In this document: in pieces, positions 1 through 16,569 of the stretch
Layout of the letters: every line of letters begins with the position of its first letter
How positions within the stretch are numbered: the stretch's first letter is position 1
NCBI GenBank assembly: GCA_947626845.1
Contig: CANQTW010000010.1
Location: forward strand, 1-64,000
Source of the DNA: an uncultured Oscillospiraceae bacterium
Lineage (GTDB): Bacteria; Bacillota; Clostridia; Oscillospirales; Oscillospiraceae
Reading direction: 5' to 3'
DNA: 64,000 bases
Notes under the pieces: model-generated
Databases searched by the model: none
What the model was told of the DNA's origin: nothing
Seen by the model: the letters and a program-made list of their open reading frames with translations, nothing else
Program-made: the position numbers and the translations under genes

Positions 1-1531
<1,531 letters not shown>

Positions 1532-1557
<26 letters not shown>

Positions 1558-1678: not shown

Positions 1679-1682
1679 CAAG

Positions 1683-2022: not shown

Positions 2023-2047
2023 ATTAGCACCTCCACCCTAATATAGT

Positions 2048-2064: not shown

Positions 2065-2093
2065 GTATTAGGTTAACAAAGGTATCAATAATG

Positions 2094-2122
2094 TTGACAA
2101 TCAACGTGAAATTTGTTAAAAT
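2094..2122 (+). promoter_or_regulatory. Sigma-A-type promoter for the zinc-ribbon gene
   Basis: TTGACA at 2094-2099, 17-bp spacer, TAAAAT at 2117-2122, about 40 bp before the ATG at 2163. Confidence 0.75.
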
Positions 2123-2162
2123 GTAATGGTAGTTACCCATTGCTTATGGTGGAGGTATTGCT

Positions 2163-2909
2163 ATGGCTTTAGTAGATTGCCCTGAGTGTGGACATCCCGA
2201 TATTTCAGACACAGCGGAAGCGTGCCCGCAATGCGGTTATGCAATAAAAGAGCATTTCCAACGTGAAAAGCAAAGGAAATTACAGGAAGAAAACCAGCGG
2301 CGCATAGCGGAGGAGAGGCAAAAAGAGGTAGAAGAGCTTAATCTTGAACGTGATAAAAAGTTGCAAGAAATAGATAATCTACCCTATCCAACAAAACCAA
2401 GCCTATTAAATGATATAAAATCACCTCTTGTGGGATGGACGGTTGGCATTATAGTCGGTTCTTTTTTGCTTGCGGGCCTATTCGCAGATACATTCATAAT
2501 GTACTTATGTTCATTGGTTTGCGTTGTTGCATTGGTCATTGGCGCTCCAATAGTAGTGTATGTAGTATTAAGTGACTATAAATCATCAAGAGACTTATAC
2601 CTTGAGTCAACAGAAGATTGGGAGAAATATAAGGACGGCAAAAAGGAAGCAATACGAAAAGAGTATGATGAGTACGCTTCTAACATTACTCAATATGGAA
2701 CGAGGTTTAGGCTTGTGCCGTCTACGCCTCAAGCAACAATGACTACACCCCGCACTCCCCGCAATATACCCAAATGCCCCACTTGCGGTTCAACAAATGT
2801 CAAAAGAATATCTGATACTAAGAAAGCTACTCACGCCATAGCTTTTGGTATATATAGTAAGACTGCTTTTTCTCAATTTGAATGTGAAGATTGCCATTAT
2901 AAATGGTAA
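2163..2909 (+). CDS. Membrane protein with N- and C-terminal zinc ribbons
   Basis: A 248-aa protein of no recognised function. It has an N-terminal zinc ribbon (CPECG...CPQCG, about residues 7-26), a charged coiled-coil stretch (about 30-75), two adjacent hydrophobic segments (about 95-140), a soluble linker, and a second ribbon (CPTCG...CEDC, about 205-245). The ATG follows GGAGGTATTGCT. It stands alone behind the promoter at 2094 and is followed by a terminator at 2932-2968. Similar zinc-ribbon membrane proteins occur on Firmicute mobile elements; a signalling or envelope role is possible but unproven. Confidence 0.8.
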   Translation: MALVDCPECGHPDISDTAEACPQCGYAIKEHFQREKQRKLQEENQRRIAEERQKEVEELNLERDKKLQEIDNLPYPTKPSLLNDIKSPLVGWTVGIIVGSFLLAGLFADTFIMYLCSLVCVVALVIGAPIVVYVVLSDYKSSRDLYLESTEDWEKYKDGKKEAIRKEYDEYASNITQYGTRFRLVPSTPQATMTTPRTPRNIPKCPTCGSTNVKRISDTKKATHAIAFGIYSKTAFSQFECEDCHYKW

Positions 2910-2931
2910 TTAAACTGTTGTTTTATTAACG

Positions 2932-2968
2932 AAAAAGGGCTATTGCATGTGGCAATAGTCCCTTTTTT
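2932..2968 (+). terminator. Intrinsic terminator
   Basis: AAAAAGGGCTATTGC stem with GGCAATAGTCCC and a T6 tail, 23 bp after the zinc-ribbon gene. Confidence 0.8.
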
Positions 2969-3051
2969 ATGTTATTAGTGTTGTTTTCCGGTAATCAGCT
3001 AAGGGCAAAAAGAATAGGCCGTTGCAAGCAACAGCCCATTCAGATTTCTAC

Positions 3052-3258
3052 TTAATCAGCGGCGTACCGCTCCACATCTTCTAAGCTCATTGTGTAACCT
3101 TCGCCAGCTTGAATTATGTTGTTTTCGTCTACTAACATATATCCGCCAGACAGTGAAGCGGTTATACCTATATCATTCCTTCTCCTGTCTTTAACCAGCC
3201 TCAAGCCCTCTTTCCTGAGTGCCCGCCTTACCTTATCCTCTCTTGCCTTATCTGTCAT
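3052..3258 (-). CDS. Small conserved-type hypothetical protein
   Basis: A 68-aa charged protein starting MTDKAREDKVRRALRKEGLR. The ATG at 3258 is preferred over an upstream TTG. It overlaps the end of the gene at 3248-3931 by a few bases, so it is probably translationally coupled as the third gene of the leftward group 4205-3052. Pattern: basic N-terminal helix, then a beta-rich section (GGYMLVDENNIIQAGEGY) ending in SLEDVERYA. No function is recognised. Confidence 0.7.
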   Translation of the reverse strand: MTDKAREDKVRRALRKEGLRLVKDRRRNDIGITASLSGGYMLVDENNIIQAGEGYTMSLEDVERYAAD

Positions 3259-3931
3259 TGTCAATCATCCCCGTTTCAAAATAATAATAATATTCTTGCT
3301 CTAAATCTTCAATCTGTCTGCTGCACTCATCAGCATAATTGGGGTACGCCTCCGCAATTCTTGTAAGAATTAACTTTTTGAAAAACGGGTAAACATCATC
3401 TTTGCCCGTTTTTCCTTTATTACTGAATAACATGGAATCATAGTTAACCAGGTTATGACGGATATAATTAACAACCCATCTTTTAATTGTCTCTTCATCC
3501 GCCCATTCTGTACTTCTTTCGTGCCTCCAGTCAAAATGCAAATCATACCAATATTGCTGTTGGTCGATTGCCTCTTTCCTAAGCTCTTTATCATCAAGAA
3601 GAATTATATAGGCATTCTTTGCGGCCTCTTCCATGGCCTCTTTAAGTTTTCTCTTCTTGGTTTCAACGGCTTTAGCTGAGTTGTTCTTTCGCTGCCGAAT
3701 CCGTGCAAGGTCAGAATTAAAATCCGCTCTCTTTTCGGCGTTCTCTACATCCATCAATTCCCATAATTTCATAGGTGCTGCACATCTATAATGAGGGTTT
3801 CTTACTTCTTTCGGAGCCGGTAGATACTTATCAATTAGTGATTTCGTCCATCCGCGTTGTAGAACCGTTGATTGTGTAATGTATTTGATTTCAGACAAAG
3901 CATCCCGCTCCTTCCCTAATGAGTCTTCCAT
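3248..3931 (-). CDS. Hypothetical protein with mobile-element N-terminal motif
   Basis: A 227-aa protein, second of three leftward genes. The start at 3931 (MEDSLGKERDALSEIKY) is chosen because the longer frame would bury most of the preceding gene. The N-terminal part contains a short motif often seen in phage or element proteins (GWTKSLIDKYLPAP...NPHYRCAAPMKLW), followed by a long lysine-rich coiled coil (about residues 75-120) and an aromatic C-terminal region (YYYYFE). This layout suggests nucleic-acid contact, but no catalytic motif is visible. Confidence 0.7.
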   Translation of the reverse strand: MEDSLGKERDALSEIKYITQSTVLQRGWTKSLIDKYLPAPKEVRNPHYRCAAPMKLWELMDVENAEKRADFNSDLARIRQRKNNSAKAVETKKRKLKEAMEEAAKNAYIILLDDKELRKEAIDQQQYWYDLHFDWRHERSTEWADEETIKRWVVNYIRHNLVNYDSMLFSNKGKTGKDDVYPFFKKLILTRIAEAYPNYADECSRQIEDLEQEYYYYFETGMIDNDR

Positions 3932-4205
3932 TCTCAAAGTACATATACTTGACATTCGACCCGGTGAAGTGAAGTTCAATCAGAACACCGCCATCTTCGT
4001 CAACGTCCCCTATCCCTATCTGAGCTGGAGCAACGGCCTGCACCACATCCCGTAACTCATTCAGGGAAAAGCCCATCGGCCCATCTACGGGTATATAGAG
4101 GATTGAATTTTCCACATACACCTCCGGTAACTCGAAATGGTTTTGAATGCTCTTGCAAGTGTCGAAGGGCTTTCTTGTTTTGATACCTATGAATTTTGCT
4201 TGCAT
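3891..4205 (-). CDS. Hypothetical protein, first gene of a leftward operon
   Basis: A 104-aa predicted alpha/beta protein with no recognised domain. ATG at 4205 follows an AGGAGGT-like site in the leader. It overlaps the start of the next gene by about 40 bp. Transcription is expected from the promoter at 4252-4280. Segments of note are YIPVDGPMGFSLNELRDVV and a C-terminal FTGSNVKYMYFENGRLI. Confidence 0.7.
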   Translation of the reverse strand: MQAKFIGIKTRKPFDTCKSIQNHFELPEVYVENSILYIPVDGPMGFSLNELRDVVQAVAPAQIGIGDVDEDGGVLIELHFTGSNVKYMYFENGRLIREGAGCFV

Positions 4206-4251
4206 TTTTGTTTTACCTCCTGTTTGTTGTTTGGTTTCTTAACTGTCCTGT

Positions 4252-4280
4252 ATTATACCACATAACGCCACAAAAGTCAA
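4252..4280 (-). promoter_or_regulatory. Promoter for the leftward genes 4205-3052
   Basis: On the minus strand TTGACT (4275-4280), 17-bp spacer, TATAAT (4252-4257). The TTGACTTTTG start of this promoter is shared with the resolvase promoter at 8363-8391. Confidence 0.78.
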
Positions 4281-4417
4281 TACGTATTCGTGTATTTTTT
4301 CACACAAATTTGTTGTTAACGCAAAAGTCAACACATTTTTATAATATTTAAAGAAAATGTTGACGGGGGAATAAAACGATTATAATTATTATACCACATA
4401 TACGTTGATATTTCATC

Positions 4418-4446
4418 TTGACATTCACGTTTATATGTAGTATAAT
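4418..4446 (+). promoter_or_regulatory. Consensus promoter for the 187-aa gene
   Basis: TTGACA (4418-4423), 17-bp spacer, TATAAT (4441-4446), 65 bp before the ATG at 4511. Confidence 0.8.
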
Positions 4447-4510
4447 AAAAACTATAACAAGGGCATTAACTTGTGTATTCCAATAAAAGCGAAGATTAAG
4501 AGGTAAGAAT

Positions 4511-5074
4511 ATGGTTAATGTAAATGGTGAACAAATCCAGCGTGATAAAGTGGATAAGGTTGGTAAGGTTGGGTCGTTATCATATTTGTTGTTTAAATTT
4601 CTTCTCAAAGATTCCGGTATGTCGTTGAAGGGGTTTGTAGAGTTGTGGAACAAGTCGCATCCAGACGATAGAACAACAACGCAAAGCTTAAGTAACAAAT
4701 TGGCAAGGGACACACTGAGACTCAATGAGTTTTTGGCCTATACAGAAATGATTGGCTATTCACTTTATTTTGAGAAGATAGGAGCAACAAAGCGGGAAGA
4801 TGAAGCGCCTAAAGTGGAAGCTGAAAGGAAAACTAAGAAATTCGCTGATGCTATAATGGATGGATTGGACGAATGTACAGGGGTTAATTTTAGCTCTATT
4901 CTTATCGCCGGGGAAAATGCAACCGAAGCGGCCCGTTGGATTTCTGATAACCAAGTTGAGGGTATGGCAGAGACACAAGAGCTAATTTTGCTTATTGCTG
5001 CAAACAGGCAATTTCATGTTGTTTGTAAGCCCATATCGAATAGTTCAAATTATGAGATGGTAACACGCGAGTAA
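4511..5074 (+). CDS. Mobile-element hypothetical protein, possible HTH N-terminus
   Basis: A 187-aa soluble protein. The ATG at 4511 follows AAGAGGTAAG. The N-terminal half (LFKFLLKDSGMSLKGFVELW, then TTTQSLSNKLARDTLRLNEF) looks like a divergent helix-turn-helix of the kind seen in small element-encoded regulators, followed by a charged linker and a C-terminal domain rich in aliphatic residues. It has its own strong promoter. Function is unassigned; a regulatory role is only inferred. Confidence 0.72.
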   Translation: MVNVNGEQIQRDKVDKVGKVGSLSYLLFKFLLKDSGMSLKGFVELWNKSHPDDRTTTQSLSNKLARDTLRLNEFLAYTEMIGYSLYFEKIGATKREDEAPKVEAERKTKKFADAIMDGLDECTGVNFSSILIAGENATEAARWISDNQVEGMAETQELILLIAANRQFHVVCKPISNSSNYEMVTRE

Positions 5075-5088
5075 TTAAATAATAGTTG

Positions 5089-5117
5089 TTGACATTACAA
5101 ATTTAAAATGTTATCAT
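5089..5117 (+). promoter_or_regulatory. Promoter for the small coiled-coil gene
   Basis: TTGACA (5089-5094), 17-bp spacer, TATCAT (5112-5117). Confidence 0.65.
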
Positions 5118-5161
5118 TATCATATTGTAAGGCCAACAATAATTATAGGAGGGCATTAAAT

Positions 5162-5389
5162 ATGTCTGAAAGAAAAGTAAGAACATCCGGCGAAAGGATT
5201 GCGGAAATTGATAAAAAGATAGTTTATCATAAAGACTGCATTTCAAAGCTCGAAAAGAAGAAAAAAGCAATTTTAGAGCCAAAAAAGCGCGAAAGAAAAA
5301 TAACAAGTATGAATGGACTTGTGAACAAAGCTAAGAAGTCCGGAATGACATTAGAGGAAATGGCGGAGAAACTTGGAATTAAGATTTAA
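5162..5389 (+). CDS. Small coiled-coil protein
   Basis: A 75-aa basic protein. The ATG at 5162 is preferred because it follows AGGAGGGC at the right distance; an in-frame ATG at 5108 lies inside the promoter. Residues about 10-40 form a predicted coiled coil (ERIAEIDKKIVYHKDCISKL), followed by a short helical tail MNGLVNKAKKSGMTLEEMAE that could be a minimal DNA-binding helix pair. The arrangement resembles small DUF4315-type proteins of conjugative elements, but the match is not certain. Confidence 0.72.
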   Translation: MSERKVRTSGERIAEIDKKIVYHKDCISKLEKKKKAILEPKKRERKITSMNGLVNKAKKSGMTLEEMAEKLGIKI

Positions 5390-5401
5390 TTTATTTCCTG
5401 A

Positions 5402-5433
5402 TTGGCGCGGCTGAAAAGTCGCGTCATTTTTTT
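5402..5433 (+). terminator. Intrinsic terminator
   Basis: GGCGCGGCT-GAAA-AGTCGCGTC stem followed by T7. Confidence 0.8.
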
Positions 5434-5516
5434 GCCTTTTATGTAACAGAATGTTTCGCTAAGTTAACCTATAGTTTCGCAATTTGTGTTACAGTAAATA
5501 AAGGCGGCTGATGTAG

Positions 5517-5801
5517 ATGTATTTACTTCCGGCGAGATTAAAAGAATTGCGAATACAAAAACAGTGGACACAAGAGCAAGTTGCAAGGCGAATTGGAGTT
5601 ACAAGGGCTGCGTTATCAATGTATGAAAATGGAACAAGACAACCAAGTTACGAAATTCTTATTGAGTTTTCAATCCTTTACAATGTCTCTTGTGATTATT
5701 TATTGGGGTGTGAAAGAAAGAAGCTAATTGATGTATCAGGCCTGAATGAATATGATATTGCCGCAGTAGAGCATATAATATCAGCCTTGCGAAATCACTG
5801 A
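5517..5801 (+). CDS. XRE-family HTH transcriptional regulator (second copy)
   Basis: A 94-aa Cro/C1-type regulator. The HTH occupies residues 1-60 (LKELRIQKQWTQEQVARRIG, then VTRAALSMYENGTRQPSYE), then CDYLLGCERKKLIDVSGL, which parallels the first XRE protein. The upstream region 5442-5499 has TGTAACAG and TTACAGTAAAT plus two GTTTCGC copies, likely operator elements. It lies directly before the SLH surface-protein gene (17 bp) and may be cotranscribed with it or control it. Confidence 0.88.
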   Translation: MYLLPARLKELRIQKQWTQEQVARRIGVTRAALSMYENGTRQPSYEILIEFSILYNVSCDYLLGCERKKLIDVSGLNEYDIAAVEHIISALRNH

Positions 5802-5817
5802 TAAGGAATGGTTAAAT

Positions 5818-7461
5818 TTGAAAAAGATAGTTGTTTTACTATTGGCTATTTCCATGATTGCGTATCTGAATGTCTCAGCTCTTGCAGATGAAGAAAACCA
5901 GATATTAAGCACTGAAGATTTAATACAGGCTATTCAGGATGCTGGAGACGGTGACACACTTACACTAATTCAAACGATTTATATTTATAGTGATTGCATT
6001 ATAGGAGACGCAGACAAACAAATTAATATTGTGCTATCCGATGATTTTATGGGGCAACAGGTTTTTTGCCTTTATGATGATGCCGGGAATGTTTCATTTC
6101 AAAATCTGAATATTCAAGTGAATGTGTATGGGCTTGAAGTTTTCGAGGTTTACCACTATGTAGATAATGATATTAATGTTAGCTTGACACTTGACAATAT
6201 AGATATTTCAAATTCTATGTTTTGGCAAATAGCAAATATAGTTTGTGGAGATGCAACTATTAAAAATTGCAATTTCTCAAATAACAATCCACAGCATAGC
6301 GGTATAAGCAATAGAGGAAATCTTATAATACAAGATTGTACCTTTGACGGCAATGTATCAGATAAACCAGGTCTTGTATTAAGCAATTCTGGAATTGCTC
6401 AGATGATAGATTGTACAGTTACCAACAATACAATCAATGACGATGGAACACCGCATAATGGAGTAATTGAATGTAATAACGGCTCAAACACAACAATTAA
6501 AGGCGGTCTGATAACGGGCAACAAAGCCAATTATGGAGGCGCAATTTCAAGTTTTTCAGAGTTAGAGCTTGAAGATGTTGAAATCTATGGTAATGAGGCT
6601 TACAATAAGGCCGCACAAGATATATTTTGCCCTTCCTCTTATATCAAAATAGGTTATACAAACTCTATGTTTGATGTGTACGATGGTGAACCGATTGGGT
6701 TTTATCAGGATGCTGTAGATAACCCCTTTAATAGTGAAAATCCGGTTTTCATTGGTGAAAGCGTTGATATGAAAACACCTGTAAGTTATGGCCTCAGATT
6801 TGTATTCAAGTCGGATTTGCCGGAACCTGAGCCGGAACCGGAACCAGAACCGCAACCGCCTGTTTACTTCCCTCCATATATTCCCCCTGTTATAGATGAA
6901 GAGATTGAAGAGGAACCACCGATAAAGGACAAAAAGCCTGAATTGATACTTGCCCATAATGGAGCGGTCTTTGATACTACAAAGAGATTTGAATTGTTTG
7001 GGTATGAAGACGGCCTCAAACATGAAGAGGATTACTTAACCAGGGCGCAATTTGCGGTACTTGTGTATAGAGCTTTGACGGAGGCAAGCAAAGAAGAGTT
7101 AGAGACAGGCGAATTATATTATTCAGACGTGCAAGAAAATCAGTGGTACACTGAGGCAATCCAGGCATTGACAAAGGCGGGGATTTTCGCCGGGTGTGGA
7201 GATGGTTTATTTATTCCTGATGGGCTTGTATCACAAGGTCAGCTTATAGCCGTATTAACGAGGTTTACAGAGCCGTTGACCGTAGATGTAATAGACGTCA
7301 GCTATAAAGATTCGTGGGCGTACAGCTCAATTCTAACGGCCTACGAGCTAAATTGGATTGACAATTTAGAAGACATTCAAGTTGACCGGCCTGTTACCAG
7401 GGGCGAAGTAGTAGAATTTGTAAATAGCGTGTTCGACATGGTTTTTTCAAAAGCTGAGTGA
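5818..7461 (+). CDS. Secreted beta-helix surface protein with C-terminal SLH domains
   Basis: A 547-aa exported cell-wall protein carried by the mobile element. The start is TTG at 5818, with AAGGA 10 bp upstream; the nearby ATG at 5808 is out of frame. Signal peptide about 1-23 (VVLLLAISMIAYLNVSALA). Residues about 100-300 show repeated short beta strands with N-rich turns, typical of a right-handed parallel beta-helix. A (PE)n linker at about 335-350 leads to SLH domains (about 385-545) that in this family bind pyruvylated wall polymer. It may be an adhesin or polysaccharide-binding cargo; substrate unknown. Low GC matches the element, not the host. Confidence 0.82.
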   Translation: MKKIVVLLLAISMIAYLNVSALADEENQILSTEDLIQAIQDAGDGDTLTLIQTIYIYSDCIIGDADKQINIVLSDDFMGQQVFCLYDDAGNVSFQNLNIQVNVYGLEVFEVYHYVDNDINVSLTLDNIDISNSMFWQIANIVCGDATIKNCNFSNNNPQHSGISNRGNLIIQDCTFDGNVSDKPGLVLSNSGIAQMIDCTVTNNTINDDGTPHNGVIECNNGSNTTIKGGLITGNKANYGGAISSFSELELEDVEIYGNEAYNKAAQDIFCPSSYIKIGYTNSMFDVYDGEPIGFYQDAVDNPFNSENPVFIGESVDMKTPVSYGLRFVFKSDLPEPEPEPEPEPQPPVYFPPYIPPVIDEEIEEEPPIKDKKPELILAHNGAVFDTTKRFELFGYEDGLKHEEDYLTRAQFAVLVYRALTEASKEELETGELYYSDVQENQWYTEAIQALTKAGIFAGCGDGLFIPDGLVSQGQLIAVLTRFTEPLTVDVIDVSYKDSWAYSSILTAYELNWIDNLEDIQVDRPVTRGEVVEFVNSVFDMVFSKAE

Positions 7462-7535
7462 AGAAGGTCACATACCGGCCCTTGTAGTATTTTGCAACAA
7501 AGACCTAATGTTAAATGGCCCCCATATGACACAAA

Positions 7536-7565
7536 GAGCGGGAGAGACAACACCCTCCCGCTCAC
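7536..7565. terminator. Bidirectional terminator between SLH gene and resolvase
   Basis: GAGCGGGAG / CTCCCGCTC inverted repeat between two convergent genes. Confidence 0.65.
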
Positions 7566-7571
7566 CTTGCT

Positions 7572-8309
7572 TTATATGTCGAGCTGCAATTCTCGCTTAT
7601 ACTTATAGTAAGTATTTCGTGACAAATTCAATATTTCAAGAATTTCCCTATCGCTCATATTTCCATCGAAGTCCTTTGACATTTTCTTGATTTTAATTTT
7701 TGCCTCTTTACTCTTTCTTGTTTCAATTGTCTGCCCGTGAACACGTCCGATTTGTTTACGCTCAGATTCCGGCAAAAGCTCATTGTTCAATTTTGTTGTT
7801 TTGATACCCTGAGATATGCGGCTGTGCAAATCGTCAACTTCTTTTTGCGCTTGGTCGAAGGCAACCTTGATTTTTTCCCGCGTCTCGTCATTTTGAAATT
7901 CGGTTATTGCGTCCAGTACAGAGGCAATAAGTTTGTCTACTGACTCCCTCCCGCTCTGCGCTATCTCAATTCTTTTGGCTTCCATCTTCTTGTAATATGA
8001 TGTATTGATATGCGGCTCATTGAGAAAGACAAGCTCAATACCACGCTCCATAAGCTCCATATATAGCTTGTATCCTTCATCGGCTGTGCGGCTCATTCGC
8101 GACACGCTATCAAATATTATTGTATCACCAGGCTGCACAACCTTCAAAAGCCGTTGAAATTCCGGGCGGTCAAGTTTCGTGCCCGTGAATTTTTCCTTGT
8201 AAATTTTTTCAACGTGTTTATCTCCAGCATATTCCAGGATGTTTTTGATTTGCCGGTCAAGCCGTTGCGTCTGAGTGCTTACCCGCGCATATCCGTACAG
8301 TTTACCCAT
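7572..8309 (-). CDS. Small serine recombinase (resolvase/invertase family)
   Basis: A 245-aa site-specific recombinase. The ATG at 8309 follows AGAGG; an upstream GTG is possible. The N-terminal resolvase domain has the catalytic serine in YGYARVS (Ser11) and the family pattern DSVSRMSRT. The C-terminus ends in a Hin-type helix-turn-helix (SDREILEILNLSRNTYYKYK). Its length is slightly above typical Tn3-type resolvases because of a helical insert around 120-170. Upstream lie two copies of TCTAAATTGATACT and a palindrome, which could be res subsites. It may resolve multimers of the circular element or invert a segment. Confidence 0.92.
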   Translation of the reverse strand: MGKLYGYARVSTQTQRLDRQIKNILEYAGDKHVEKIYKEKFTGTKLDRPEFQRLLKVVQPGDTIIFDSVSRMSRTADEGYKLYMELMERGIELVFLNEPHINTSYYKKMEAKRIEIAQSGRESVDKLIASVLDAITEFQNDETREKIKVAFDQAQKEVDDLHSRISQGIKTTKLNNELLPESERKQIGRVHGQTIETRKSKEAKIKIKKMSKDFDGNMSDREILEILNLSRNTYYKYKRELQLDI

Positions 8310-8332
8310 ATTGTACACCTCTTTATGTACTG

Positions 8333-8432
8333 TTTTAGACTAAACTCTAAATTGATACTGATATTGTACCTCCATCAACGGCAAAAGTCAACAGATTTTT
8401 ATACTTTTTGTCATAATGTCTAAATTGATACT
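8333..8432. repeat. Putative res/operator region of the resolvase
   Basis: A palindrome TTTAGACTAAA (8333-8343) and two direct copies of TCTAAATTGATACT (8346-8359 and 8419-8432), 73 bp apart, flank the resolvase promoter. Confidence 0.55.
8363..8391 (-). promoter_or_regulatory. Resolvase promoter
   Basis: Minus strand TTGACT (8386-8391), 17-bp spacer, TACAAT (8363-8368), between the two TCTAAATTGATACT repeats. Confidence 0.7.
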
Positions 8433-8475
8433 ATATCGGGAAAAGGGAAGGGAGGGCGTAACCCCTCCCGCTCCC

Positions 8476-8709
8476 TTAGTCGATTAAATACTTCTTGCTA
8501 ATGTAGTTATCGTATTCATCATCCATTCTGTGATTTACAAAACCTCTCCAGATAGCGTTTCTGAGTTGAACAGCCTTAACATACAGATACAGGAGTGGGC
8601 CGTGCTTAGGCTGATAATAGACCTCTTGGCACTTTTCAAACCCAAGGTAATAAACGAAATCTTCCAGCTCTTCAAAGAATGCAAAAAGCACCTGAGAAAA
8701 CTTATTCAT
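8476..8709 (-). CDS. Small hypothetical protein
   Basis: A 77-aa protein with many aromatic and acidic residues (FFEELEDFVYYLGFEKCQEV). The ATG at 8709 follows GGAGA. It is the last gene of the leftward group 9296-8476. No domain is recognised. A GC-rich inverted repeat at about 8449-8475 may terminate the transcript. Confidence 0.65.
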   Translation of the reverse strand: MNKFSQVLFAFFEELEDFVYYLGFEKCQEVYYQPKHGPLLYLYVKAVQLRNAIWRGFVNHRMDDEYDNYISKKYLID

Positions 8710-8764
8710 TGTGTTCTCCAATCTCCCCGTGTGCCCGATAGGTCAGGCGTGTCTTATTTCTTGT

Positions 8765-8962
8765 TTACTTGCGGTATGCCGCAAAAACCATATGGTACAT
8801 ATCAAGAGACTTCCCTAAAATTCCATAGCGGTCACTTTCGGGGCCACAATAATATGTTGGCTCAGTGAATCCGGCCCTTATTGCGGTGTCCTTTTCCCTG
8901 AATACTTTTTCAATGCGAACCCCAAGAAAGCGCGGTGTCTGAACCCAATTACCTTTTTTCAT
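8765..8962 (-). CDS. Small hypothetical protein
   Basis: A 65-aa protein starting MKKGNWVQTPRFLGVRIEKV; the ATG at 8962 is favoured by a GGGGAGAAAGAG leader, and the longer frame would overlap the upstream gene. It contains EPTYYCGPESDRYGILGKS. It belongs to the leftward group controlled by the promoter at 9486-9514. Function unknown. Confidence 0.65.
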   Translation of the reverse strand: MKKGNWVQTPRFLGVRIEKVFREKDTAIRAGFTEPTYYCGPESDRYGILGKSLDMYHMVFAAYRK

Positions 8963-9020
8963 CGTTTTTCTCTTTCTCCCCGTTAAAAGCCAGATAGGAC
9001 AGCTTATATCGTCTATTGTC

Positions 9021-9296
9021 TTAGGCAATCACAAACCGGCGTGAAGTGCTTGCTTTGGTGAACGCATTAGCAACATCGGGAAGAGCTTTCTTGAGAGCTG
9101 CAACATCCAGGCGGCTTGTAGATACCGTTTTCCAGGTGACGTGCCAATCAGTACCGGCAAGCTCATCAACATTGCGGTTGGTCATTTCGAGCTTGAAAAG
9201 GTCTTGAATTGCCGTGATTTCTGCATCCAATTCATCAGCCATACGGCGAAGTTCACGAAGCTCCTGTACCTTGCTGTTTAACTCTGTGCTGCTCAT
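9021..9296 (-). CDS. Phage-type small protein resembling the tail of YqaJ-family recombinases
   Basis: A 91-aa protein. The ATG at 9296 follows GGAGGT by 7 bp, so the longer frame is rejected. An N-terminal coiled coil (LRELRRMADELDAEITAIQD) is followed by a basic beta-hairpin segment (TDWHVTWKTVSTSRLDVAAL) and a C-terminal ASTSRRFVIA. From memory of the family, the pattern of a WKTV-S-R segment followed by SxRRF is found at the C-terminus of phage YqaJ-type exonucleases; here it stands alone. A role in DNA recombination or binding is inference. First gene of the leftward operon. Confidence 0.72.
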   Translation of the reverse strand: MSSTELNSKVQELRELRRMADELDAEITAIQDLFKLEMTNRNVDELAGTDWHVTWKTVSTSRLDVAALKKALPDVANAFTKASTSRRFVIA

Positions 9297-9485
9297 TGTT
9301 CGTACCTCCATTTTATTTTGTTGGGAGAACTCCGGCGGTGGGTGGCTATCTTTCACTTTTCGTGCGCCTCGTTGGGTCGCCTTACCGAATCCGTTTCCCA
9401 CGCTTACAAGCCGTTCTTGATGCTATCGTCCGCGCTTGCCGGTGCCTATTGCCGTTTTCTTTTGTTCTCCCCTCTTGATGATACC

Positions 9486-9514
9486 ATTATACACTTACAC
9501 AAGTGCAAAGTCAA
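9486..9514 (-). promoter_or_regulatory. Leftward promoter with RHH operator in its spacer
   Basis: Minus strand TTGACT (9509-9514), 17-bp spacer, TATAAT (9486-9491). The spacer is almost exactly filled by the palindrome-like ACACTTACACAAGTG (9491-9505). Confidence 0.75.
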
Positions 9515-9575
9515 TATGGCATTTTCAACAAAGTTGTGTAAGTGTATTTGTGCAAATTGTACACTTGTGTAAGTG
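9491..9575. promoter_or_regulatory. Three operator copies, ACACTTGTGTAAGTG type
   Basis: ACACTTACACAAGTG at 9491-9505, TTGTGTAAGTGTA at 9534-9546 and ACACTTGTGTAAGTG at 9561-9575. Two further copies lie after the regulator gene at 9908-9922 and 9937-9952. Confidence 0.7.
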
Positions 9576-9585
9576 CCGATAATGT
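9557..9585 (+). promoter_or_regulatory. Rightward promoter for the RHH gene
   Basis: TTGTAC (9557-9562), 17-bp spacer containing an operator copy, TAATGT (9580-9585). Confidence 0.55.
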
Positions 9586-9613
9586 GATATACTTGTGTTC
9601 GGAGGTGATAGGC

Positions 9614-9901
9614 ATGGCAGCAATGAGCGAAGCCAAGAAAAAAGCAAATAAAAAATGGAATGACGCGAACCTTAAAGACAGATATGATAGAATACAGTTG
9701 GTTGTACCCAGAGGCCAAAAAGACATTATTCAGGAACACGCAAAAAAACACGGGGTATCACTCAGCGCATATATACTGACATCCGTTAATGAGGCAATGG
9801 AGCGGGATATTCAAGCAATCCCCAAAAGTCCAGATGTAGCGATTATAGAACAATCACAAACCGAGGACGATGAAGACCTCAAGCTCCCCTGGCAGGAATA
9901 A
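9614..9901 (+). CDS. Ribbon-helix-helix (Arc/MetJ-type) regulator
   Basis: A 95-aa protein. The ATG at 9614 follows GGAGGTGATAGGC; the longer frame runs through the promoter. Residues about 25-60 (RIQLVVPRGQKDIIQEHAKK, then HGVSLSAYILTSVNEAM) fit a ribbon-helix-helix: one beta strand then two helices. The acidic C-terminus (TEDDEDLKLPWQE) is variable. It is surrounded by five copies of an ACACTTGTGTAAGTG-like site, two in promoter spacers, so it probably represses itself and the divergent operon. No toxin partner is adjacent. Confidence 0.82.
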   Translation: MAAMSEAKKKANKKWNDANLKDRYDRIQLVVPRGQKDIIQEHAKKHGVSLSAYILTSVNEAMERDIQAIPKSPDVAIIEQSQTEDDEDLKLPWQE

Positions 9902-9907
9902 CCACAA

Positions 9908-9952
9908 TGTTGTGTAAGCGTATCCACGAATACGGTACACTTATGCAAGTGT
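9908..9952. promoter_or_regulatory. Downstream pair of RHH operator copies
   Basis: TGTTGTGTAAGCGTA (9908-9922) and ACACTTATGCAAGTGT (9937-9952), degenerate copies of the site found in the divergent promoters. Confidence 0.5.
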
Positions 9953-10107
9953 AGATAATTAGGAAAGGGAAATAGACACTATTATTACAATTATTGGCAA
10001 ATAGGCTGGATTCTCCGAAAAGTAAGTTTTCTAAACCCTCAATTCAGGGGCGTTTACGAGGGCAAATTTGCTGATAAAATCTGAATTTTATTTGGGGTAA
10101 GAGTATT

Positions 10108-10392
10108 ATGAAGAATAACAAAAGCTCAGGAGACACGCCGCTCCTATTAGCTTTGCTTATGACGTTTGGACTGGCAAAGAGCGGGGAAAATAAGCAAACG
10201 GCAGCCAAAACGTCTAAAAGCGCCGTACCTCTTTGGGCATCTCTATTGGCTATTGCTCTTTGCGTTATTGCTTTCGCTGTAATTTTGAATATGGATATGA
10301 GCCGAGACGCAACAAAGCTCTTATGTGGGCTATTGCTTATTGGGGCGTCCATTGGCGGTTATCTTCTCATGGCAAACGCTCAACAGAAATAA
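10108..10392 (+). CDS. Small membrane protein
   Basis: A 94-aa protein with three hydrophobic stretches: about 12-20 (weak), 42-60 (LWASLLAIALCVIAFAVIL) and 70-88 (LLCGLLLIGASIGGYLLM). The ATG at 10108 follows GGGGTAAGAG. The last two segments form a helical hairpin. No family is recognised. It lies upstream of the structured RNA. Confidence 0.7.
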   Translation: MKNNKSSGDTPLLLALLMTFGLAKSGENKQTAAKTSKSAVPLWASLLAIALCVIAFAVILNMDMSRDATKLLCGLLLIGASIGGYLLMANAQQK

Positions 10393-10535
10393 CTGTGTCA
10401 ACGAAATCTTATAAGTTTCGTCAAAATGATACTTGACATATCAAACTTTTGACGGCAAATAGTAACTGATTTACTATATATTTCAGGAATCCAAAACTAT
10501 TTTGGAGATTGAGGTAATTATTTTGACTTTACCTC

Positions 10536-10564
10536 TTGACAGATTGACCAAAGTGTGGTATAAT
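10536..10564 (+). promoter_or_regulatory. Near-perfect sigma-A promoter of the structured RNA
   Basis: TTGACA (10536-10541), 17-bp spacer, TATAAT (10559-10564). A palindrome ATAGTAA/TTACTAT at 10459-10477 lies upstream and may be an XRE-type operator. Confidence 0.85.
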
Positions 10565-10570
10565 ACGCTC

Positions 10571-10872
10571 AACAATTAAATAATGCTGGCGCATTAGTGA
10601 AATAAACATCACGCGCCGTTAGTGCTTTAATCATTCGGTTTTACCGCAGACAAACAAGTGTTTATATGTGTCATATGCCTTAGTCAGTCGGGGACATATG
10701 AGCGTTGCTTAGGCAGCGTAGCTGATTGACCTCCGGGATGGTCTACCACCGGAGGAGACAAATTTAGAAGATACACGCCGGATAAATGGTGTGCAATGGT
10801 GATTAAGGGCTATCTAATCTTGAGATAGGTAAAGTTATACCTATTTCACGATTGGGTAGCCCTTTTCTTTGC
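10571..10872 (+). ncRNA. Structured RNA of about 300 nt, unassigned family
   Basis: Runs from a consensus promoter to an intrinsic terminator with no credible reading frame. Helices that can be drawn by eye: GGCGC/GCGCC (about 10588-10616), CGGT/ACCG (10636-10646), GUCAGUC/GAUUGAC enclosing GCGUUGC/GCAGCGU (10684-10729), CCUCCGG-GA-UGGU/ACCA-CCGGAGG (10730-10755), CACGCC/GGUGUG (10774-10793), and a terminator AAGGGCTA/TAGCCCTT with an inner ATAGGTA/TACCTAT. The terminator lies 12-30 bp before the ribosome site of the next gene, so the RNA may be a free small RNA, an attenuating leader, or both. No known riboswitch or ribozyme consensus was recognised. Confidence 0.65.
10805..10871 (+). terminator. 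Terminator/attenuator of the structured RNA
   Basis: AAGGGCTATCTAATC pairs with GATTGGGTAGCCCTT, with the inner hairpin ATAGGTA/TACCTAT and a T-rich tail, directly upstream of the gene at 10890. Confidence 0.8.
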
Positions 10873-10889
10873 TTTAAAGGAGGTGTATT

Positions 10890-11072
10890 ATGAAAATATT
10901 TAATCAACGACTTGCCGGATACCTTATGATGCAGGGCTTTAGGCTTGTAACAATCAAGCCAAACACTAAATCAAACCGGTACAATGTATTTGAGTTTGAA
11001 AATTCTGATAAACTCAATCAAACCATTAGAGAATACAAACAAAATAATAGAAATGAAAAGGAATTTAATTAA
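10890..11072 (+). CDS. DUF5659-type small protein
   Basis: A 60-aa protein starting MKIFNQRLAGYLMMQGFRLV with the spaced N-V-FEF-S-L pattern of DUF5659 (from memory of the family). The ATG follows AAAGGAGGTG. Its stop overlaps the HNH gene start (TAATG), so the two are translationally coupled. Proteins of this kind occur on Firmicute elements and phages; their function is unknown. Confidence 0.75.
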   Translation: MKIFNQRLAGYLMMQGFRLVTIKPNTKSNRYNVFEFENSDKLNQTIREYKQNNRNEKEFN

Positions 11073-11734
11073 TGAATAACGATGACGCTATTACAATCAA
11101 TAATGCAGCAAAAATAATGGGCAAAAGTATAAGCTCAATAAGATATTATCTCCACAACAACTTGCTTTCTGGCTTTAAGCCGGAAGGTAAAGGGTTCAGG
11201 GTATATTTAAAGGACGTTCTCAATCTCAAAAAGTGGCTTGATAATCCTATTCAAGAGCCAACAGGCAAGATTAATTTATGGCGTGGTGAAGTATTAAAAA
11301 TATGGGATGGCGGGGGAAATCCTGACCTTTGGACGAGTCAATTATATGGTGTCTCAAATTTTGGAAGAGTCTTTAACTTGACCAAGCGCACGAAGTTGAA
11401 ACAGCACCCCGCAGACCATGGGTATATGCAAGTCTCATTAGCACGAGGGCACACCGGCGATATAATATCCATGCGCGTCCACAGAATGGTTGCTACAATG
11501 TTTTGCAATAATTGTAAAAACAAGGTGGAAGTACACCATATCGACGGTGACAAAGACAACAACAGAGCCAATAATCTATTGTGGGTGACGAAAAAGCAAC
11601 ACGGCAGACTTGATTCCATGTTATACCAAATCAAAAAAGACCCCTCTGACATCGACCTCCAACAAAAATATAGCCGATTGATTGATAGGATACGGAATGA
11701 AAATTACTTTAATGTTAGAGAGTGGGAACCATGA
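11072..11734 (+). CDS. HNH endonuclease with HTH and NUMOD4-like region
   Basis: A 220-aa putative nuclease. Residues about 1-58 form a MerR/excisionase-like helix-turn-helix (AITINNAAKIMGKSISSIRY, then a wing ending LNLKKWL). Residues about 85-130 resemble NUMOD4 (WTSQLYGVSNFGRVFN). The HNH core is at about 150-180 (VEVHHIDGDKDNNRANNL, then WVTKKQHGR), with the His pair and Asn-rich turn present. Related proteins are homing endonucleases or phage nucleases. It sits downstream of the structured RNA and overlaps the replication-type gene by ATGA. Confidence 0.85.
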   Translation: MNNDDAITINNAAKIMGKSISSIRYYLHNNLLSGFKPEGKGFRVYLKDVLNLKKWLDNPIQEPTGKINLWRGEVLKIWDGGGNPDLWTSQLYGVSNFGRVFNLTKRTKLKQHPADHGYMQVSLARGHTGDIISMRVHRMVATMFCNNCKNKVEVHHIDGDKDNNRANNLLWVTKKQHGRLDSMLYQIKKDPSDIDLQQKYSRLIDRIRNENYFNVREWEP

Positions 11735-12693
11735 GCCAAGATAAGTCAATGAGGCTAAACCCGGAACGCTACGAATACCATGATGGATATTGTGTTGACA
11801 GGAAAACAGGGGAGCGCATAGAGACAGCACAAATCACAGCGCCTATTGGCTCCACTCATCGGACTCCCGCTCAACAAGAAGCATACAAAAAGATACAATC
11901 CATAAAAAATTATCAGGAAAAGCGCCGGAGCAACAACAAAGAATTAGGCCCCTTCTATTTTGCTACGCGCCAAAACCATCTCGGAGCTTTAAGCCCTGAG
12001 ACGGCAGCACGGCTAATTTATTTGTGTACATATTTGGGATTTGATAATTATTTCTGGAGAAATAAATCAAAAAAGCTGAAAAAAGCTGATTTAAAATCAC
12101 TTTTGAAGGTATCAGATGGAACGGTTTTTAAGTTTTGGAAAGAGGTTAACCCGCTCTATTTAACTGAGGATGAGGAAGGTTATTTGAGGCTGAACAGTCC
12201 AGATATTGTGCGTGGCCTTATTCGTAACAACAATATATCGTATCAGAGGTTTTTTTCTAAGTTTGTGCGCAAGATTTACGAAGAGACATCCAGCACAAAA
12301 CATAAGCACCTTGGTTATATTTTTCAGATTTTGCCTTTTGTGAGTCTGGAATACAATATATTATGTTGGAACCCGGAGGAAGAAAATCTCGAAGAAATCA
12401 ACGCTTTATCCATAAAGGATTTTTGCGAATTAATCAACTTTGATGCAAGTAATCCAAAACGGCTCATGGACAGGTATAATCAGATAACATTTAACCACAA
12501 TGGGCATCGTGAATATTTCCTGTCTTATGTCTTTAATAGCTCAGAGCGGGGAGCGGGCAAGATGTTCGTTAATCCCAAAATCTTCTATGCCGGAAAGGAT
12601 TACAAACGGGTGGAGATATTGGGAGCATTTACCAAAGAAGACGAAAAGGAAAAGAAATTTGCTGAATATCTTGAATCTCGGAATTTGGCCTAA
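11731..12693 (+). CDS. Putative replication initiator-type or regulatory protein
   Basis: A 320-aa protein. The ATG at 11731 overlaps the HNH stop (ATGA); an upstream GTG at 11722 is possible. The middle part (LSPETAARLIYLCTYLGFDN, then LKSLLKVSDGTVFKFWKEV) looks like a winged-helix domain of the kind in plasmid and phage replication initiators and element regulators. A second such unit may follow (LSIKDFCELINFD...RLMDRYNQI). The C-terminus is charged. No helicase or relaxase motif is present. The replication role is inferred from layout and neighbours. Confidence 0.6.
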   Translation: MSQDKSMRLNPERYEYHDGYCVDRKTGERIETAQITAPIGSTHRTPAQQEAYKKIQSIKNYQEKRRSNNKELGPFYFATRQNHLGALSPETAARLIYLCTYLGFDNYFWRNKSKKLKKADLKSLLKVSDGTVFKFWKEVNPLYLTEDEEGYLRLNSPDIVRGLIRNNNISYQRFFSKFVRKIYEETSSTKHKHLGYIFQILPFVSLEYNILCWNPEEENLEEINALSIKDFCELINFDASNPKRLMDRYNQITFNHNGHREYFLSYVFNSSERGAGKMFVNPKIFYAGKDYKRVEILGAFTKEDEKEKKFAEYLESRNLA

Positions 12694-13139
12694 AATCAGC
12701 CGTAACCACTCCTAAATTGAGGTCTTACGGGCTTCAAACATGATATATGCTTGCTGAATATCTTGAATGCAGAAAAAACGTGAAAACCATTGGGGCAGTA
12801 AGAGTTTCGGGATTTTGAGTCGTTTTTTCCTTCTATTCTTATAGAACTAAATATTGAATGGGCTTATGGTTTTACGAAAGTGGAACCATAAGGCCAGTTG
12901 AGATGAAGATGACATACGAACCATGAGGAAAATAAAAATATAATCATGCAATTTTTCATAAGCGTTAGCGTTGAAAAATGCGGCAGCCCGCCAGGGCGAT
13001 ATAAGAAAACATCCGTGTATTCCTGACGCGCTACGCTTGCCACATCTCATATCTGCGTTAGCCTTTTTGAAATCAGTACATAAACAATATGATGCAGATA
13101 TTCGATGATAATATTATAAAAACTATTAGGAGAAACAAC
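12694..13139. other. 446-bp intergenic region, recombination scars, no credible gene
   Basis: Contains an 18-bp direct repeat of the end of the preceding gene (TTGCTGAATATCTTGAAT at 12659-12676 and 12751-12768) and TTTGAAATCAGTACA at 13066-13080, which recurs after the radical SAM gene. Reading frames of 22-26 codons exist but lack ribosome sites. GC rises locally around 12960-13040, unlike the neighbouring AT-rich genes. Confidence 0.6.
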
Positions 13140-14399
13140 ATGAAATTTGATTACTATATGTCTTGTTTAACCATTGAGATAACAAGACGATGCAATAAAC
13201 ATTGTCTATTTTGTGCAAAGGGAGACGCGCAGAATTTAGATATAACGAAAAAAATAATAGATAAAACACTCAGTGAAGTTAAAGGATGCTTTATTAATAC
13301 ATTGAGAATATCAGGTGGCGAACCTTTACTAAGGCCAGATATTATTTGTTATTTGCTTAATCAAATAATTGAAAAGCATATTATTGTCAATGATGTAGTC
13401 ATGTTTACCAATGGACATTTTACCGGTGATTCTGAGTTGGCTAATTGCATTTGTACGTTTTTGAATTATCTGCGCCAAATCGAGTCAGAGGCGGGAACTA
13501 TTATGCGATGGTCTAACTTTAACTTCACTTCAAAATACAGCAGTATTGCCGCTAAATTTGCCATTATAATTAGCGATGTTGGGAAGGGCCGAAATGTTAG
13601 TCCAGATATGGTAAATGACCTTATTACTTATTATTCCGAAAAAATACAAGATGATGCTTTTTACATAATGAAACAGAGCGAAGATTTTAAGAGCATGGGT
13701 CAAATAACCCTTGAAGGAAACGCAAAGCGAAATTATAAGGACTTGATTGGCGATTCAGTTTATATAAATCAAATCAAAATTTTGAATAACAATTATTGCT
13801 TTGTGACTAATTCTGCAAACAATCCGCACCAACCATTTTTTCATAATACATATTTTGTAATGAAAACCTTAACAGTTTCTGCAAACGGCAATGTATTTCC
13901 TGGCTGTTCGATGTCTTATGTTCGTGTAGATAATAAACCAATGTTTAATATTCTCGATTGCAATAAGAATTTTTTTGAAAAAGTTGATACATTTTGCTGG
14001 AATAATCCAATTTGCGACATGGCAATGTCTAAACGTAACACATTTGCGGCAATGGAGTTTTGCCGAAAAAAGGGCATAAAAATAAAAAACATGACAAAAC
14101 AGGATTATATACTTTTTCAAATGTTGGATGACTTAATAAATCAATACGAAACGATTGCAAGAGATATTCACCCTATGTTACCATACCTGAATCATGCAGA
14201 GATAGATGGCGTAGCGATTGCGATTTTAGTAAACAATCTTTATGAAAAGAAAATCCCAAAAGAGTATATAGATTTTTTCCTCAAAGAATGTACTGATTTC
14301 GGACCTGAAAATATACCCCTTGTTACGCCTGAATGGTGCAGAGGATTTATATTATCATATGTCGAAAAAAATAAAGAGTTGGCACATAAGGCGCAATAA
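13140..14399 (+). CDS. Radical SAM protein with SPASM/Twitch-like C-terminal cysteines
   Basis: A 419-aa AT-rich cargo gene. The ATG at 13140 follows AGGAG. The cluster motif CNKHCLFC (Cys18, 22, 25) binds the SAM-cleaving 4Fe-4S cluster, and SGGEPLL follows at about residue 60. Residues about 245-320 show the SPASM/Twitch layout NGNVFPGCS...C...FCWNNPIC...FC, which usually holds auxiliary clusters. Such enzymes modify peptides or proteins, or mature other enzymes. The last 90 residues are a helical domain. No precursor peptide gene is visible within 450 bp on either side. It is flanked by a 15-bp direct repeat (13066, 14412), which suggests capture as a unit. Confidence 0.85.
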   Translation: MKFDYYMSCLTIEITRRCNKHCLFCAKGDAQNLDITKKIIDKTLSEVKGCFINTLRISGGEPLLRPDIICYLLNQIIEKHIIVNDVVMFTNGHFTGDSELANCICTFLNYLRQIESEAGTIMRWSNFNFTSKYSSIAAKFAIIISDVGKGRNVSPDMVNDLITYYSEKIQDDAFYIMKQSEDFKSMGQITLEGNAKRNYKDLIGDSVYINQIKILNNNYCFVTNSANNPHQPFFHNTYFVMKTLTVSANGNVFPGCSMSYVRVDNKPMFNILDCNKNFFEKVDTFCWNNPICDMAMSKRNTFAAMEFCRKKGIKIKNMTKQDYILFQMLDDLINQYETIARDIHPMLPYLNHAEIDGVAIAILVNNLYEKKIPKEYIDFFLKECTDFGPENIPLVTPEWCRGFILSYVEKNKELAHKAQ

Positions 14400-14411
14400 A
14401 CGTTATCGGAG

Positions 14412-14561
14412 TTTGAAATCGGTACAAGTTTATAATCCCCAATTTATGAGCGTTTAATTGGCAAAAATTCTTGAAAAAAAGCTAAATCGGTAAAATAATC
14501 GGTAAGGCTCCAATTAGGGGCAGTTATAGCTATTTTTGATAATAATAATGGGGAATCGGTA
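14412..14561. repeat. AATCGGTA iteron cluster
   Basis: Four exact copies of AATCGGTA at 14417-14424, 14485-14492, 14497-14504 and 14554-14561. Two related CCAATT...GGGGC motifs lie at 14437-14465 and 14508-14530, in the gap before the recombinase module. This fills the 14400-14611 interval; no gene is seen there. Confidence 0.65.
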
Positions 14562-14611
14562 CACGATATTTTTTGAGTTTAGAGTGAAAAATGATAGGAA
14601 ATTTATAGTAT

Positions 14612-14776
14612 ATGAGAGAGCGCAACAAAGATGAAGAATTGAAATATGCAGCACTGAAATTGATAGAAAATCTATATGAAAAGGGCTTAATTGAAAAGCA
14701 TATATTTCAAAATATATTGAAAGAGTATGGTCAAAAACTTGACTTTCTCCCTTCTAAGAGGTATAATATAGCGTAA
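14612..14776 (+). CDS. Small protein preceding the serine recombinase (SHOCT-like)
   Basis: A 54-aa reading frame: starts MRERNKDEELKYAALKLIEN, ends LPSKRYNIA. It has predicted helices and a G-L-I-x-K-x-I-F pattern resembling the short SHOCT-like proteins commonly found directly upstream of large serine recombinases in Clostridia elements (from memory of such elements). It ends 26 bp before the recombinase ATG, so cotranscription is likely. It could be a recombination directionality or accessory factor; unproven. Confidence 0.65.
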   Translation: MRERNKDEELKYAALKLIENLYEKGLIEKHIFQNILKEYGQKLDFLPSKRYNIA

Positions 14777-14802
14777 CGAAGTTAGGAAATAAAGGGGGAA
14801 TA

Positions 14803-16569
14803 ATGGCTATGACTGATAAGAATAGGAAAGTTGTGATTTATGCGCGGGTGTCCACAGAGCATGAAGCGCAGCTTTCCGCCCTTGAAAACCAAAAGGATTG
14901 GTATGGGCCTATCCTGTCTATGCACCCGGAATGGCAAGTTGTTAGAATGTACGTTGATGAGGGCATCACGGGAACATCGGCGAAAAAGCGGCCTAACTTT
15001 ATGCAAATGATTGAGGACGCAGACAGCGGGGAATTTAATCTTATCCTCACAAGGGAAGTATCAAGATTTGCCCGTAACACGGTTGATACCCTTACATACA
15101 CACGACAGCTTAAGGCAAAGGGCGTTGAGGTCTACTTCATCACTGACAACATAAGAACCTTTGACGGGGATGGCGAATTGCGATTGACGATAATGGCAAC
15201 ATTGGCGCAGGATGAGAGCCGCAAAACCTCCATTCGGGTCAAGAGCGGGCAGCAAACCAGCATGGAGAAAGGCGTTTATTATGGCAATGGGAACATATTG
15301 GGATACGATAGGAGAGGCAAAGAGTATGTAATCAATCCAGAACAGGCAAAAACTGTACGGATGATTTATGATTGGTACTTGGACGGCGTTGGCATTCGCT
15401 CCATACAGTTTCAACTTGAACAAGCCGGACGGCTTACGGCTATGGGAAATGCAAATTGGCACATGGCTAATATTGCTAAAATCTTGAAAAATCCATTCTA
15501 TTGTGGCATTTTGAAATATCATAAGCAGTGGACGCCAGACTTCCTGGAGCAAAAGAAAATAAATAATATCGGGGATATGGACTTTACCGTTGTGCGTGGT
15601 AATCATGAGCCTATTGTAACAGAGGAGGAATTTGACGCTGTGCAAGCCCTTATTGAGAGTAGACACAGAGAGCAAAAAAACAACCCCGCAGGGAAAAAGC
15701 GCGTATTTGGGGAACGTCCACCTTCTGATGTTTGGACAGAGCTTTTAATATGCCAGTGTGGGCATAGATTTAATCGGAAGGTGTGGCATCGGACAGACAC
15801 AGAAATCCAGTATGGTTATCAATGCTACAGCTCAATTCGGAGCGGGACGGTAAAGACCCGGCAAAATAAAGGCCTACCACTGGATGGCGTTTGTACAGTG
15901 CCCATGATTGCCGGTTGGAAATTGCAAATGATGGCAAAACACATATTCCGAGAATACTTACAGGACACAAATAGGGTTTTGGCGTTGGCTGAGTCCATGC
16001 TGTCAAAACACATTGATGACCCTAAGCCAACAGAGGATAACACGAGGATTGTTGAACAAAAGAAGATGGAGCGGGAGAAGTTAACCAGCAGACTCCATAA
16101 TTTGGTTGAAATGCGGGCAGACGGTGAAATCACAAGGGATATGTTTTTGGCAAAGAAAAGCGAAATAGAAAAGCGCCTTGGAGAGATAGAAACAGAGTTA
16201 ACCGCCTTGGAGCCGGAAGAGAATGACCTGGAGGATGAGATTGGGCATGAAGAAAAAATAACCATTCTCAGGTATTACTTGGAGCAATCCGTAAAACCAA
16301 CGGGCACAGGCGACTTGGAAGAGAATGTAATCAGAGCGTTTGTAAAAAAGATTGTTGTACATGAAGACTCTTTTGATTGGTATTTAAGGTTTAGCCCGGA
16401 CGATGACCCGGAGCGCGTCACGGTGAACGGCAAACGCAAACAGAACGCCTCAATTTCCTCCGTTTGCTCATCCCAACACAGGCCGCCATCAAGGGCTGAG
16501 ATACAATTTCGTTTACAAAAGGGTACGCGCAAGCGTACCCTTTTGTTGTGGGCACCCTGTCAGAGCTGA
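14803..16569 (+). CDS. Large serine recombinase (integrase), C-terminus altered by integration
   Basis: A 588-aa integrase in its integrated form. The ATG at 14803 follows AAAGGGGG. Resolvase domain with catalytic Ser17 (YARVSTEH), TREVSRFARN and the Recombinase domain (LGYDRRGKEYVINPEQA) at about 170-275, then a zinc ribbon (CQCGHRF...CYS, about 315-350) and a coiled coil (about 400-490). From codon 561 onward the frame runs through attR into host DNA: the last 28 residues come from the displaced ppdK end and its terminator. In the circle the frame would instead join the 48-codon tail at 1532-1678. The AGG codon is in the same phase at both ends. Confidence 0.95.
   Translation: MAMTDKNRKVVIYARVSTEHEAQLSALENQKDWYGPILSMHPEWQVVRMYVDEGITGTSAKKRPNFMQMIEDADSGEFNLILTREVSRFARNTVDTLTYTRQLKAKGVEVYFITDNIRTFDGDGELRLTIMATLAQDESRKTSIRVKSGQQTSMEKGVYYGNGNILGYDRRGKEYVINPEQAKTVRMIYDWYLDGVGIRSIQFQLEQAGRLTAMGNANWHMANIAKILKNPFYCGILKYHKQWTPDFLEQKKINNIGDMDFTVVRGNHEPIVTEEEFDAVQALIESRHREQKNNPAGKKRVFGERPPSDVWTELLICQCGHRFNRKVWHRTDTEIQYGYQCYSSIRSGTVKTRQNKGLPLDGVCTVPMIAGWKLQMMAKHIFREYLQDTNRVLALAESMLSKHIDDPKPTEDNTRIVEQKKMEREKLTSRLHNLVEMRADGEITRDMFLAKKSEIEKRLGEIETELTALEPEENDLEDEIGHEEKITILRYYLEQSVKPTGTGDLEENVIRAFVKKIVVHEDSFDWYLRFSPDDDPERVTVNGKRKQNASISSVCSSQHRPPSRAEIQFRLQKGTRKRTLLLWAPCQS
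16479..16483. repeat. attR core CAGGC
   Basis: Right attachment core inside the recombinase frame. Host sequence from here reads QAAIKG-stop in the ppdK phase (stop TGA at 16497-16499), a natural end for PPDK. Confidence 0.75.
16484..16499 (+). pseudogene. Displaced native 3' end of ppdK
   Basis: From the CAGGC core the ppdK phase gives AAIKG and a stop. Fused to the host side of attL it yields an uninterrupted PPDK ending RLAAAQAAIKG. It is now out of use unless the element excises. Confidence 0.75.
16517..16545 (+). terminator. Native ppdK terminator, now inside the recombinase frame
   Basis: AAAAGGGTACGC-GCAA-GCGTACCCTTTT, a perfect stem with a T tail. It may stop or attenuate transcripts at the recombinase 3' end. 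Confidence 0.8.

Follow-up and report, generated by a model that had tools for sequence, protein, structure and literature searches.

Insertion cuts a conserved tail off the integrase gene in some elements and phages of gut-type bacteria

The integrase of an element inserted near the start of the window (the whole 64,000-nucleotide stretch of Oscillospiraceae DNA analysed here, from a source genome of 2.58 Mb in 68 contigs) reads across the right-hand junction of the element and ends on host codons. This locus raises the question of whether a single integrase gene has been divided at its own attachment site, and of what the separated part would do for the enzyme. Comparison with related genomes and viral contigs demonstrated that, in some elements and phages of gut-type bacteria, a conserved integrase tail is cut off by insertion, and that free phages carry the gene uncut.

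The element in ppdK and its integrase gene

The integrated element (about 14.95 kb, 1532..16482, no strand assigned) lies inside the 3' end of ppdK, with CAGGC at both junctions (attL core, 1528..1532; attR core, 16479..16483; both + strand). The 3' part of ppdK is in the window (16..1557, + strand; PEP-utilizers_C and PEP-utilizers domains). Its codons after the core are derived from the element, and its native end (QAAIKG and a stop) is displaced to 16479..16499 on the + strand. The ppdK C-terminus is re-supplied by the left end of the element, with AAISEMGK replacing AAIKG, and the left ends read in other genomes likewise ended ppdK properly (18-genome phase comparison). The stretch concerned (1533..1557, + strand) is read in two frames, the ppdK C-terminus in one and the integrase tail in the other; this left arm is the new ppdK end when the element is inserted and integrase tail when it is free. 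After the host flanks were rejoined and compared with the uninterrupted site of a congener (G030:C3), 416 of 449 nt matched, the match extending 19 nt past the junction, and the downstream gene of that site aligned separately with that of the window (71%). Recombination between attP and attB was seen only through its products, the empty site and both junctions, and a crossover anywhere within CAGGC gives an identical protein. The element also encodes a second, small serine recombinase of the resolvase type (7572-8318, minus strand) and a cargo protein with an S-layer homology domain and a beta-helix region (5818-7461).

The integrase body (14803..16482, + strand) is a large serine recombinase matching the phrog_95 integrases. 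Its Resolvase (PF00239) and Recombinase (PF07508) domains both scored above cut-off, and both are kept in the inserted reading frame. Serine 17, in the motif YARVST, was invariant among 15 aligned relatives and is presumably the catalytic serine. Comparison with the NCBIfam equivalogs for SCCmec Ccr recombinases did not place the protein among them (CcrB, 132.6 bits against a cut-off of 900). The inserted frame (14803-16569, 588 aa) crosses the attR core at codon 560, AGG 16480-16482, and is completed by 28 host-encoded codons and a stop fused onto the body (16483..16569, + strand). At the other end of the element, the AGG codon at 1529-1531 is in matching phase and is followed by the detached tail, 48 open codons and TAG with no start of their own (1532..1678, + strand). 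A terminator-like hairpin found by pattern scan, which is not evidence of function, lies directly after the tail stop (1686..1716, + strand). The preliminary description had placed both junctions at these positions, and its coordinates hold; the ends joined at CAGGC form the one 608-codon gene that it predicted (560 + 48).

The tail in cut and uncut genes

The detached tail was compared with an HMM built from the C-termini of 10 uncut relatives. The window tail scored 48.8 bits, against 6.8 bits for the best of 420 shuffles. All 21 tails compared, split or free, outscored every one of the 420 shuffles, the weakest, from phage L187, only just (8.4 vs 6.8 bits). Full-length recombinases with a similar tail, which the preliminary description had proposed to look for, were found by tblastn with the 48-residue tail: it matched the contiguous integrase C-termini of L044, L045 and L046 (47-50%, E 1e-9 to 5e-9) and the integrase C-terminus of L012 (39%, E 3e-4). 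The tail alone had no match in Pfam at E 0.001. It is placed after the zinc and coiled-coil region, and alignment of the family profile with solved serine integrases such as SPbeta YokA ended at profile position 515 of 592, before the tail.

G101 and G106 differ at 15 nt in the 38-residue tail domain yet encode the same residues there, and this stretch read in the two other frames has 10 and 13 residue differences of 37, plus stops. The whole tail of this pair gave a dN/dS of 0.04 (20 synonymous, 5 nonsynonymous) and is under purifying selection; across seven other pairs with defined dS the tail values lay between 0.12 and 0.52, and G607-G626 (0.52) was the least favourable. The dS of G101/G106 was far higher in the tail domain (1.23) than in the integrase body (0.29); an exchange of bodies and tails among elements, or different histories of the two, may account for this. 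Recombination at the shared core may allow such an exchange.

Cut copies recurred in other genomes. Among the closest ten integrase loci (62-79%), seven (L039-L043, L047 and L048) enter accidental tails at the ppdK site, and in the other three (L044-L046) the first integrase is uncut. Genome searches at E up to 1e-100 found a related integrase, cut or not, in 11 of 400, 22 of 394 and 4 of 391 genomes and supplied more cut copies, and searches with the tail and with ppdK ends located detached tails directly behind ppdK in further genomes. We assembled 28 hand-chosen inserted copies, of which 27 have the core (L096 lacks it). In these 27 the integrase stop lies 10-124 nt from the core start (median 31). 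The body is fused to about 2-40 host-encoded codons in the inserted copies, and these host-encoded tails are arbitrary in length and sequence.

Both ends were readable in 18 of the 24 genomes entered, and in all 18 the integrase phase at attR equalled that of the tail at attL; one phase accounted for 13 genomes and the second for 5. Full concordance would arise from random pairing of these 13 and 5 with a probability of 1.2e-4, a value to be read with the related genomes not being independent. On a quick tree, from which protein rows below 500 residues were left out and in which states were labelled by hand, the minority phase required at least two changes. Both ends lie on one contig in 8 of the 18 (G000, G101, G106, G105, G030, G720, G390 and G867). 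In the other 10 the ends are on separate contigs and could come from different elements, which is likely for G445 and G100, where the tail is cut by the contig end and probably comes from another element; the G445 left end is identical to phage L165 at 120 of 139 nt, and the G445 integrase is only 42% identical to that of the window. The entered genomes outside the 18 were G503, G308 and G636 (attR core not found), G755 (early stop in the left-end frame), G715 (uncut junction) and G738 (no left end entered, no ppdK match). G099, G102, G107, G394, G486 and G1060 have cut integrases with no tail-bearing left end and were not entered. A tail search of 12 genomes gave a match of any kind at E up to 10 in 9, the best in G102 (E 0.19) looking like chance, and no match in G099, G100 or G107.

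Viral contigs scanned with the window integrase alone gave no match, and the family alignment as query gave 35 loci. Free relatives with a recombinase ending before attP had been named in the preliminary description as evidence against a divided gene; ten IMG/VR contigs of six lineages (L165/L166, L167/L168, L170/L187, L171/L181, L182 and L184, pairs being near copies) instead have an unbroken integrase running through the attP core into the tail, with a mimic of the ppdK end in another frame at the core. Three further viral loci (L172, L173 and L183) look inserted. Free L165 is 98.3% identical to inserted L106 over 1672 bp, the match ending 6 nt past the core, and 97.3% identical to inserted L087 over 1676 bp, the match ending 10 nt past the core. 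Of eight of these viral records compared with ppdK, none had a match, a weak result as the records are fragments. Terminal overlaps, a sign of circular contigs, were absent from 16 contigs or stretches; for the viral loci, mostly fragments, this test carries little weight. The window's own attP junction, sought among the viral contigs as an exact 21-nt string, gave 0 matches, and the window element was unseen in free form. The genes beside attP in L165 and L167 include those for endolysins and anaerobic ribonucleotide reductase, and in L167 one for a head maturation protease. A reverse transcriptase gene (phrog_1423) lies a few kb from attP in both (L165:16327-17529; L167:16422-17711).

Taken with the tail homology and the phase, the uncut phage copies strongly support the reading put forward in the preliminary description, one gene cut at attP with a conserved tail swapped for accidental host codons. 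They also rule out a chance open frame, and an assembly artefact is scarcely credible: most sources are metagenome assemblies and, in G755, the ppdK end and the int-attP junction are oddly identical over 49 bp, but genomes, contigs and viral collections agree independently. G755 and G715 contain the uncut int-attP-tail junction in a cellular contig as well; these are perhaps tandem insertions, and G755 may be a misassembly. L097 (G636) looked uncut, had no ppdK core and was not counted as an uncut attP form.

In an integrase alignment, attP sits in the linker that separates the motif FDWYLRF from the tail, and this linker is much shorter in uncut sisters (the first integrase of L045, L174, L175 and L178). 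Some sister integrases have a contiguous tail and no attP in the gene (the first integrase of L044-L046, L012 and L174-L178), and a convergent ppdK element in G159 keeps the tail on its integrase with attP outside the gene, indicating that the in-gene site is a changeable, evolved trait of the lineage.

Possible consequences of losing the tail

In the reading we favour, attP occupies a variable linker within the 3' portion of the integrase gene, with the conserved recombinase body on one side and a small, conserved C-terminal segment on the other. The gene is whole in the free genome. When attP recombines with attB in the 3' end of ppdK, host-encoded codons are added to the body at attR, and the tail codons are stranded, start-less, behind ppdK at attL. 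The left arm gives ppdK a new end in another frame, so that the host gene keeps a full reading frame, and excision at the same core would rebuild the integrase gene exactly. The tail may aid the free enzyme in integration, assembly or stability, and its loss may attenuate or alter the chromosomal integrase, which would make insertion self-limiting. The anatomy, the phase, the conservation and the uncut and inserted forms are observed. From these sequence comparisons, we consider the case for an in-gene attP whose tail serves the free enzyme, with an attenuated or altered form left after insertion, to be about evenly balanced. It is the most likely of the readings weighed here, followed by a passive overlap, with a switch of direction as the bold case. 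The conserved tail and phase indicate that a full-length product is important while the element is free, and the arbitrariness of the host tails suggests that the element, once inserted, does not need it. The tail is kept in cellular genomes by L012, L044-L046 and G159, which counts against attenuation and indicates that the tail is not incompatible with the chromosomal state. The dS gap of G101/G106, the dN/dS of G607-G626 and the 10 of 18 genomes with split contigs also weigh against it.

The same arbitrary host tails, the uncut relatives in cellular genomes and the YokA alignment (to 515 of 592), which contains no counterpart of the tail, are also compatible with a passive overlap, in which attP landed in a tolerant linker and a useful tail is cut without regulatory meaning. 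We regard this as a real but lesser possibility, since tail and phase are retained in the lineages read, two phases included, and a useless tail should have decayed, contrary to the identical tail domain of G101 and G106 with its 15 nt differences.

The preliminary description had suggested that insertion could switch the activity or direction of the integrase. In a direction switch, the full-length enzyme would integrate and the tail-less chromosomal form would excise, largely or wholly independently of a directionality factor. This would fit a tail lying beyond the zinc and coiled-coil region, and a study of phage LI integrase (PMC10754689) reports that its coiled coil helps control direction. 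Uncut relatives in cellular genomes presumably excise with the tail on, and we consider a direction switch unlikely. If true, the gene of the enzyme would itself record whether the element is in or out.

It is improbable that the inserted integrase is simply lost, as an unstable protein or through a stopless mRNA caused by a ppdK terminator inside the chimeric frame. A dedicated hairpin search found a hairpin with a T-rich end, perhaps the ppdK terminator, within the chimeric frame and ahead of its stop (16519..16542, + strand), and L039, L048 and L183 also have a hairpin ahead of the integrase stop. These and the window are only 4 of 27 copies; in the other 23 the stop comes earlier or no hairpin was found, and the standard terminator scan found none at 16519..16542. 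A stopless mRNA was accordingly rejected as the general cause. A degradation tag is unlikely as the main role of the tail, which is a conserved segment, and 0 of 21 split or free tails end in AA as an ssrA-like tag would.

The closest known designs come from archaea and mycobacteriophages. Archaeal SSV-type 'suicidal' tyrosine integrases (SSV1, pTN3, pT26-2) have attP in their own integrase gene (PMC8371274), and a 2021 review calls 'suicidal' integrases exclusively archaeal. As in those systems, attP here lies in the element's own gene, insertion splits the gene and excision would rebuild it; unlike them, the enzyme is a serine recombinase of bacteria and their phages, and the catalytic part stays in one piece, with only the C-terminal 40-60 residues lost. 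Mycobacteriophages such as BPs, described in work on integration-dependent immunity (PMC4557955, PMC9934374), have attP inside the repressor gene. Both designs place attP inside a phage gene whose inserted form has a shortened C-terminus, but there the repressor loses a degradation tag, whereas here the integrase loses a conserved segment with an ending that is not tag-like. A term search of a survey of large serine recombinases (PMC10083194) returned no passage on attP within the gene, and a literature search of partial coverage returned no serine integrase with attP in its own gene.

The integrases of SPbeta (YokA) and Listeria phage A118, which have solved structures, share the resolvase and recombinase domains with the window enzyme, and the alignment of the family profile with YokA extends through the coiled coil; the tail, unlike these parts, has no counterpart in that alignment. 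We take attP to lie outside the gene in both phages. The clade described here extends the own-gene attP design to bacteria, phages and the serine family. Full-length and tail-less enzymes occur in it as natural pairs whose attP and attB can be read. This allows a direct test of what sets the direction of serine integrases, and the pairs might be a source of integrases that are self-disarming after use. Automatic annotation of such inserted elements yields integrases with accidental C-termini.

Further arrangements at the insertion site

L045 has tandem integrases (9926-13539), the first with a contiguous tail and the second cut at attR; L044 and L046 look like it, and their contigs end within the second integrase. 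In L048 (11660-11915; G106:C16 near 73,000), attR is followed after about 97 nt by a second core and then by a further tail, which is divergent and lies in the other phase; a second element may have its left end here. The integrases of L093 and L095 (G608 and G680) converge on ppdK, and the C-terminus of each resembles antisense ppdK, which may represent the same cut in mirror image. At the right end of L010 (G030:C35 near 21,100), the DNA after attR resembles, by eye, the start of a G608/G680-type element, which suggests stacked insertions at ppdK.
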